From Paludibacteraceae bacterium (GTDB taxonomy: Bacteria; Bacteroidota; Bacteroidia; Bacteroidales; Paludibacteraceae): 32,772 bases of DNA. Where the stretch lies: positions 1 through 32,772 of the forward strand of contig JAFTHS010000055.1 in NCBI GenBank assembly GCA_017457295.1, written 5' to 3'. The notes beneath the pieces are model-generated. The model saw only the letters and a list, made by a program, of their open reading frames with translations, did no database searches and was not told the DNA's origin. Shown here one piece after another: positions 5,341 to 5,640 of the stretch. Made by a program: the position numbers and the translations under genes. Position 1 is the stretch's first letter. Every line of letters starts with the position of its first letter.

Positions 5341-5640
5341 CGCAATCCGAGCAATCGGTTTGCAGACATAGTTATAAAAAGCGTTTATTAGCGCTTGTTT
5401 TAGAGATTCGAAATCCTGCAAAATTTCATCCTATCTAAAACAAGAAGGCAGTAAACGCCCTTTGGGATATGACTATCCCGCCCACAGAGCATCCTTTATT
5501 GGATTGCTCTGTTTGGTGGCATTCATATTCGGCGTGGGCGTTCGTTGCTTATTCTTATAGGATAGGGTCTTGCAGGAACCTCGAATCTGAGAATAAGCAA
5601 AAGTAAGGTTCCACGCTTTTCTTTTACATTCACGGGTCGT
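5341..5640 (+). ncRNA. Structured RNA element A (unclassified leader or ncRNA)
   Basis: About 300 nt between a promoter and a secreted-protein gene, rich in ordered complementarity. Long-range rod: GATTCGA (5405-5411)/TCGAATC (5581-5587); CCTGCAA (5415-5421)/TTGCAGG (5570-5576); CCTATC (5430-5435)/GATAGG (5561-5566); AACGCCC (5454-5460)/GGGCGTT (5536-5542). Inside: GGGATA-tgac-TATCCC (5464-5479) and AGAGCATCC/GGATTGCTCT (5486-5520). Competing local stems: CTTGTTTTAGA (5394-5404)/TCTAAAACAAG (5434-5444) and GCTTATTCT (5547-5555)/AGAATAAGC (5590-5598). A 5' hairpin joins GCAA and TTGC (5342-5363). The 5' and 3' ends align with element B at 32251-32490. It lacks the signatures of tmRNA, RNase P RNA and SRP RNA. 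Plus orientation is inferred from the promoter; the antisense frame of 61 codons across it is taken as a shadow. Confidence 0.55.

Follow-up and report, generated by a model that had tools for sequence, protein, structure and literature searches.

The window, by which we mean the whole 32,772-nucleotide stretch of Paludibacteraceae DNA analysed here, carries two members (elements A and B) of a family of 165-330 nt RNAs. Comparison across copies shows the predicted loop segments P1-P3 of these RNAs to be hypervariable and yet kept complementary to the loop of a second predicted hairpin. The widest interpretation that we offer is a tentative one: many Bacteroidales may possess numerous leaders per genome with internal antisense, in which two hairpins on one chain would recognise each other by a copy-specific, fast-changing three-part loop code, self-consistent order-wide even though most of its bases have been replaced, and would drive the attenuation of surface-protein genes.

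Long-form copies are arranged, from 5′ to 3′, as a 5′ hairpin (of several types), GACATA, a small hairpin, hairpin I (arms a and b), an apical arm, hairpin II (arms c and d) and ACGC followed by a U-run; loop I reads P1, P2, P3, and loop II reads P3′, P2′, P1′. Element A occupies about 5341-5656 on the forward strand, on which all features given below also lie. It is preceded by a promoter-like pattern (5306-5336: TTG at 5306-5308, 20 nt, TACCTTTG at 5329-5336), read from the sequence against what we take to be the Bacteroidetes promoter consensus, as was done for the other copies. The 5′ hairpin GCAA..TTGC, also present in the predicted fold, and the subsequent GACATA (5365-5370), seen by eye in many other printed copies, span 5342-5370. 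The alignment places hairpin 0 at 5380-5395 (AGCG 5380-5383, CGCT 5392-5395), with 98.6% of cells paired and zero two-sided changes in the 74-copy alignment described below. Hairpin I (5396-5442; stem 5396-5403/5435-5442) and hairpin II (5545-5600; stem 5545-5555/5590-5600) were assigned by covariation and the swap test. The loop of the former contains P1 (5404-5409), P2 (5414-5421) and P3 (5428-5434), and that of the latter P3′ (5557-5563), P2′ (5570-5577) and P1′ (5583-5588). The apical arm (5454-5542) is closed by AACGCC (5454-5459) and GGCGTT (5537-5542), a helix that was 98.0% paired, with two-sided changes in four of its six pairs, in the 74-copy alignment. The strand GCGTGG (5532-5537) is the complement of CCACGC (5611-5616), immediately before the T-run; the counterpart of this helix covaries in 27 short-form copies, and in the long form it was identified by sequence reading only. 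The 3′ end (5607-5620), also read from the sequence, consists of GGTTCCACGC and a T-run (5617-5620), and is followed by a hairpin (5634-5656) whose loop, GGAGCC (5643-5648), complements GGTTCC (5607-5612) with one G-T pair. The gene 3′ of A (5673-6131), whose ATG lies 52 nt from the T-run, encodes a 152 a.a. protein with a type IX secretion sorting domain, Por_Secre_tail (Pfam PF18962, E 2.1e-11).

Element B (about 32251-32467) begins with the hairpin GCAACG/CGTTGC and GACATA at 32269-32274 (together 32252-32274; sequence and predicted fold). Its hairpin I (32302-32335), read from the sequence, has the stem TGATT 32302-32306/AATCA 32331-32335 and the loop segments P1 (32307-32312) and P2 (32316-32321); the same layout was seen by eye in other B copies, and single-sequence folding of B favours a rod over it. 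P3 and the apical hairpin take up 32336-32410 (P3 32336-32347/32399-32410; sequence and predicted fold). Hairpin II (32397-32439; ATTTGA 32397-32402/TCAAAT 32434-32439, read from the sequence) holds P2′ (32415-32420) and P1′ (32426-32431), and since its stem and P3′ both use 32399-32402, the two are alternatives. A terminator-like stem, GCGAAC/GTTC..CGC, with a T-run was read at 32444-32467; the consensus terminator scan gave no forward-strand call at either element's 3′ end. The ATG of the next gene, 34 nt from the T-run, opens a frame cut by the window end (32500-32772) with an FTP propeptide domain of the fungalysin/thermolysin type (PF07504, E 9.6e-11). Upstream of B lie genes for a DUF3990 protein (31503-31988) and a small Cys-rich CWC protein (30884-31126).

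Both elements folded better than all of their dinucleotide shuffles (A, z -8.4, 100 shuffles; B, z -6.2, 200 shuffles). The initial annotation had proposed a selected RNA fold on the basis of two helices, CTGCAA 5416-5421/TTGCAG 5570-5575 and CTGGAC 32316-32321/GTCCAG 32415-32420, which are indeed found there and represent P2 of each element. The fold it proposed is confirmed by the folding z scores, by covariation beyond both shuffled and slid controls, and by P1 pairing across copies. It had further treated A and B as two copies that align at both ends. Their kinship holds at the level of architecture and of an A-type covariance model that matches B (E 0.0013, within its own genome), but the end-to-end alignment is poor; the two do belong to one family, which is far larger than a pair.

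The 2.19 Mb genome of this gut bacterium contains at least 20 copies, namely 18 found by a covariance model built from 57 long-form copies (including C83, accepted after reading) and two B copies, C61 and C19, found by BLAST alone. Two weak matches, C29 (E 0.38) and C113 (E 0.92), were left out of the count, and the remaining model matches were opposite-strand echoes of the palindrome. BLAST searches with A and B against this genome returned two sets of dispersed copies, and reading revealed a third subtype. BLAST with one long-form copy found a match in 32 of 61 genomes of the same genus. The covariance model was positive in 79 of 120 genomes (27 of 33 genera) of the family, 53 of 198 genomes (43 of 151 genera) of the order, two of the 53 belonging to the same family, 7 of 149 genomes of the class (two of the same order, four from other orders) and 4 of 118 genomes of the phylum (one from another class). 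The own genome is counted among the positives at all four levels, and since 11-19 candidates were scored per genome, the model counts are low estimates; those for class and phylum, obtained with the long-form model, are probably too low for that reason too. In other families, short forms of about 165-170 nt were found. Among the matches listed for an exact pattern, the assemblies came mostly from rumen and gut, and the labels were nearly all Paludibacteraceae or Bacteroidales, with a few others, such as one Ruminococcus bin. All copies derive from assembled genomes, mostly metagenomic where named.

In Rfam 15, A and B had no match at the gathering threshold and nothing credible at E values up to 10. 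At 13 loci with further copies (E up to 0.1), the element itself was unmatched, and only an adjoining DUF805b RNA and a tRNA elsewhere in a locus reached the threshold. The description of the RNA as unclassified thus remains correct for A and B, and the search of Bacteroidales genomes and Rfam that the initial annotation called for produced many further homologues with covariation and no Rfam class. A literature search, with supplements and a 2017 survey of 224 RNA candidates outside its scope, returned no description recognised as this element. Measured against Rfam 15 and the literature searched, the family is apparently undescribed.

We next turn to the loops. Copies were filtered from 216 merged stretches by length and score to 157 non-identical segmented copies (7 could not be segmented), 139 of which were placed with a 3′ end, and 134 remained after those more than 95% alike were dropped. 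P1 had a perfect partner (6/6) in loop II in 120 of the 134 copies and a partner of at least 5/6 in 126, as compared with 3.5% perfect matches after swapping partners between copies; this rule accepts G-T pairs and a partner at any position within the final 18 nt of loop II, so a few of the 120, such as L181, are chance matches. When the partner had to follow the RCC motif directly, 111 of 134 copies matched with G-T pairs and 108 with Watson-Crick pairs only, versus 2.2% and 1.2% with swapped partners. Under this stricter rule, three copies had no anchor (L053, L213, L237) and 14 anchored copies formed fewer than five pairs. In five of the 14, P1 is longer and pairing is visible by eye (L119, L130, L132, L145, L226); another five have mismatched halves (L158, L164, L181, L197, L263), and the other four reflect faulty segmentation (L044, L046, L047, L219). 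In copies from other families of the order, P1 matched at 6/6 in 35 of 40, versus 10.6% with swapped partners; three of the remaining five pair by eye (L348, L352, L364), L356 lacks its 3′ half, and the halves of L332 are mismatched. In the alignment of 74 copies (A2), hand-picked from the 134 for diversity with several odd-half copies left out, 95.0% of cells were paired, with 587 two-sided changes as compared with 167 ± 14 in shuffled alignments and at most 127 with partners slid. Kinship alone can beat shuffles without any structure; the slid control retains relatedness. Small inner hairpins within the loops, GAAA/TTTC and GGT/ACC, did not exceed shuffles and were rejected.

Mismatched 5′ and 3′ halves were also noted by eye in L202 and L256, and each half of L164, L197 and L263 was found again in other copies. 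Such copies may reflect recombination in the constant core or short-read misassembly at the shared core. In L040 and L044 (G000:C36 at 21401 and 88744), a B-type 5′ leader with a short terminator-like hairpin immediately precedes an element of the A or C type, and from this layout the 5′ and core parts look modular.

The variation is concentrated in the loops. Across 38 copy pairs with no more than 10% difference elsewhere, divergence was 31% within the loops and 7.9% in the rest, figures in which the choice of pairs favours the loops, as all 38 had at least one loop difference. One pair, L039 and L058, which come from two genomes and precede very similar genes, differed by 24% in the loops versus 2.2% elsewhere. 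Altogether, 126 copies contained 75 distinct P1 sequences. G is scarce in the 5′ strand of P1 (4.8%, versus 23.8% for the whole element; 126 copies), which would leave loop I accessible until the matching loop has been synthesised; designed strands are likewise kept open by three-letter codes. The idea that copies in one genome avoid a common P1 was considered and rejected, as 3 of 70 within-genome pairs shared P1 versus 0.74 expected from the between-genome rate, and what stands is the change of P1 from copy to copy. For this count, handles or accession prefixes, only some of the prefixes being linked to handles, placed the 126 copies in 80 genomes, so that a few genomes may count twice.

The same data bear on a reading in which the loops pair between transcripts of the same copy, forming a dimer or larger assembly, or a duplex for a double-strand nuclease, so that any matching sequence would suffice. 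P1-P3 need complementarity alone and differences are densest in the loops, both as this reading predicts; however, pairing within one chain is generally favoured when both loops are on it, and we regard such intermolecular kissing as rather unlikely.

The four arms can pair as two hairpins (a·b and c·d) or as a single rod (a·d and b·c). In the swap test, exchanging partners weakened both hairpin stems (a·b, z -7.1; c·d, z -8.1), while the rod stems were not supported (a·d, z +3.3; b·c, z -0.8); the null pairs a·c (z -2.2) and b·d (z -3.2) also fell below zero, so the test has some background. The rod as the sole fold was therefore rejected, as its outer stems a·d and b·c lack two-sided change and a·d fails the swap test. 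In the 27 short forms, a·b was supported (33 two-sided changes versus 16.2) and c·d weakly so. A candidate closing helix, P0 (AAAAGCGU/ACGCUUUU), pairs well and shows no covariation; it was not retained. Single-sequence folding favours the rod because loop-to-loop pairs are not counted: in the single copy computed (L344), without kissing pairs, the rod was 22 kcal/mol better than the X′·Y fold described below, and forcing X′·Y with chosen hairpin stems gave no valid fold. Taken together, loop-to-loop pairing of hairpins I and II is the likelier arrangement on the evidence of covariation, and the rod and joined-hairpin states may both occur.

The initial annotation placed both elements ahead of genes, and this position is general. 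Among 146 copies of the genus with a definable 3′ end, the next gene was on the same strand in 132, on the opposite strand in 3 and not found in 11. The spacing after the U-run in the 132 was most commonly 50-60 nt (53 copies; 40-80 nt in 78), and 11 gene starts were more than 240 nt away. In 64 further copies from the family-to-phylum searches, which with few exceptions represent other genera, families or classes, 57 were followed by a same-strand gene, 1 by an opposite-strand gene and 6 by none, with 47 within 150 nt. This narrow same-strand spacing is what a cis-acting leader RNA would be expected to have. The initial annotation had left a control element and a dispersed structured repeat side by side; the strong orientation and spacing bias to the next gene argues for the former and against the latter. 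A mobile DNA repeat of the MITE or REP type, palindromic by chance, would explain dispersed, multi-copy elements. The insertion independent of gene orientation that characterises such repeats was not seen in the 146 and 64 copies, covariation extends into the loops, and neither the exact pattern in IMG/VR nor blastn against phages and plasmids yielded a match, so that a phage or plasmid origin was rejected as well and we consider a mobile repeat very improbable.

A promoter-like pattern was present upstream of 85 of 124 copies, leaving 39 without it, versus 28 of 1054 control windows. This finding, together with short forms that end in a U-run after the X′·Y helix, would suit a free small RNA gene with its own promoter, compact fold and terminator, the next gene being served by its own promoter or by read-through. 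Most copies are nevertheless followed by a same-strand gene at narrow spacing, and copies with a GGTTCC-type 3′ end have a partner hairpin past the U-run, before the start codon. We judge a free small RNA unlikely, with an appreciable chance of being right, and continue with the leader reading.

Regarding the genes that follow, 112 of the 132 were used, namely those with a start no more than 150 nt away and with distinct first 60 residues. Judged by a simple hydrophobicity criterion, 72 of the 112 proteins looked exported, whereas among the other genes at these loci 143 of 506 did (odds ratio 4.6, p 2e-12); in the order-wide set, which has no control, the figure was 28 of 47 downstream genes within 150 nt. 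The proposed link to exported proteins thus survives as a bias and not as a restriction, since 40 of the 112 fail the signal-peptide test. A twin-arginine motif is present in four of the 112, and all four MBOAT membrane enzymes fall among the 40. Among the 25 of 44 Pfam families listed for the 112 proteins were BspA-type LRR_5 (18), DUF4988 (8), collagen repeats (7), glycosyltransferase 2 (5), Por_Secre_tail (5), MBOAT (4) and trypsin (3), with no single common pathway and, as regards an IS110 bridge RNA, no recombinase family. The surface or exported bias is a tendency and not a rule. Five copies (L044, L135, L144, L232, L303) precede small twin-arginine proteins (SRREFFKKAAKAALPVVG or near it), some with several cysteines after the motif where the start was printed. 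At one locus, a DUF805b RNA (RF02914) lies just 3′ of the element above the gathering score (L304:1760-1795, forward strand), and at about 2455-2490 of L050 a DUF805b-like sequence, AACGGAGTGTGCCGAAAATCCG, was seen by eye after a B-type copy, giving two leader motifs in a row.

The mixture of targets also bears on a ligand-sensing riboswitch with its pocket in the conserved unpaired GACATA, GAAA and GGGT..ACCTC and with P1-P3 as mere scaffold. Conserved unpaired blocks do adjoin the hypervariable helices, and the alternative pairings at the 3′ end (see below) are of the kind that it would use. Riboswitches usually govern one metabolic theme, whereas this element occurs many times per genome, ahead of genes for surface proteins, membrane enzymes and other products, which makes a riboswitch improbable.

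The alternative pairings are clearest in the short forms, in which the strand X′ (GCGUGGG) pairs either with X (CUCACGC), in the apical hairpin, or with Y (CCCACGC), immediately before the U-run. In the alignment of 27 short forms (A5; 25 of 40 fetched regions plus the loci L324 and L330), X·X′ was 88.2% paired with 10 two-sided cells versus 2.3, and X′·Y was 93.4% paired with 21 versus 6.0, 8 of its 11 pairs having changed on both sides. In L374, which comes from another class, the X/X′/Y set is different in sequence but by eye still mutually complementary. The short forms thus contain predicted mutually exclusive helices like those of an intrinsic-terminator attenuator. In the long form of the window, the X′·Y strand shares just a single base with the apical helix, so a strict either/or choice is limited to the short forms. 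The 3′ ends of the 146 long-form copies fell, in a first tally, into 66 with GGTTCCACGC, 58 with a local GCGTG..CACGC hairpin and 22 with neither. In a second tally, a complementary loop within 60 nt was present in 66 of 72 GGTTCC-type, 1 of 56 TTCACGC-type and 2 of 18 other copies (p 4e-28 for 66/72 versus 1/56). This division suggests that one kind of 3′ end would act on transcription and that the other may exert its effect on the mRNA, ahead of the start codon.

We give roughly even chances to a cis-acting leader RNA that would work as a self-contained transcription attenuator, a reading favoured by the covariation of a single strand with two partners that exclude each other, one of them directly before the U-run. 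Transcription would start at the 5′ hairpin, and hairpin I would fold first, its loop staying open. When hairpin II emerges, its loop would pair with loop I as a built-in antisense. The race would end either in a continuous rod with X·X′ or in two joined hairpins with X′·Y and the U-run, and its outcome would decide whether RNA polymerase halts before the gene. In copies of the GGUUCC type, the same choice may act on translation via the hairpin before the start codon.

If this is true, an RNA class that is absent from Rfam and present in many copies per genome governs part of the cell surface in many Bacteroidales, whose order is prominent in the gut and rumen. The hypervariable, self-matching loops would amount to an unusual natural experiment in which the base pairs that matter can be read directly, and the fast change of the code in a static context becomes a testable question.

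Several known RNAs resemble the element in part. Bacteroidales-1 RNA (RF01693), reported with other Bacteroidetes motifs by Weinberg et al. 2010 (PMC2864571), is likewise a structured RNA of this order found by comparative genomics; it differs in that no Rfam match to it arose from A and B (E up to 10) or from the distant-copy loci (E up to 0.1). The palindromic Bacteroidetes candidates HMP2_4205, HMP2_1065 and HMP2_1032, described in PMC8040213 as 80-132 bp with predicted terminators near genes, are shorter than the element and are called palindromes; this comparison is by description, and a partial overlap with the element is possible. DUF805b RNA is a cis-regulatory family found about 40 nt downstream of copy L304, but it is a separate 35-nt motif with no match to the element itself. 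The packaging RNA of phi29 has two mutually complementary loops whose sequence is free if both change; it acts between molecules of one phage RNA and is neither a gene leader nor a chromosomal multi-copy element. The loop-to-loop zipper proposed here also resembles the designed paranemic motifs of RNA nanotechnology. In pT181-type plasmid attenuators, a complementary RNA loop meets the loop of a leader hairpin and decides whether the terminator forms. Both these attenuators and, on the proposed reading, the element let a few loop bases set specificity, which can change if both sides change. PMC4878617 and PMC3753616 are papers on attenuators. The partner in the pT181-type systems is a separate opposite-strand RNA and hence automatically complementary. 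A plasmid-type arrangement, with the partner on the opposite strand or in trans, was rejected for the element, the search for a further partner in trans covering BLAST with A and B in their own genome: under the strict rule, 111 of 134 copies carry the partner loop themselves, both loops are on the same strand, and their complementarity is kept by two-sided change.
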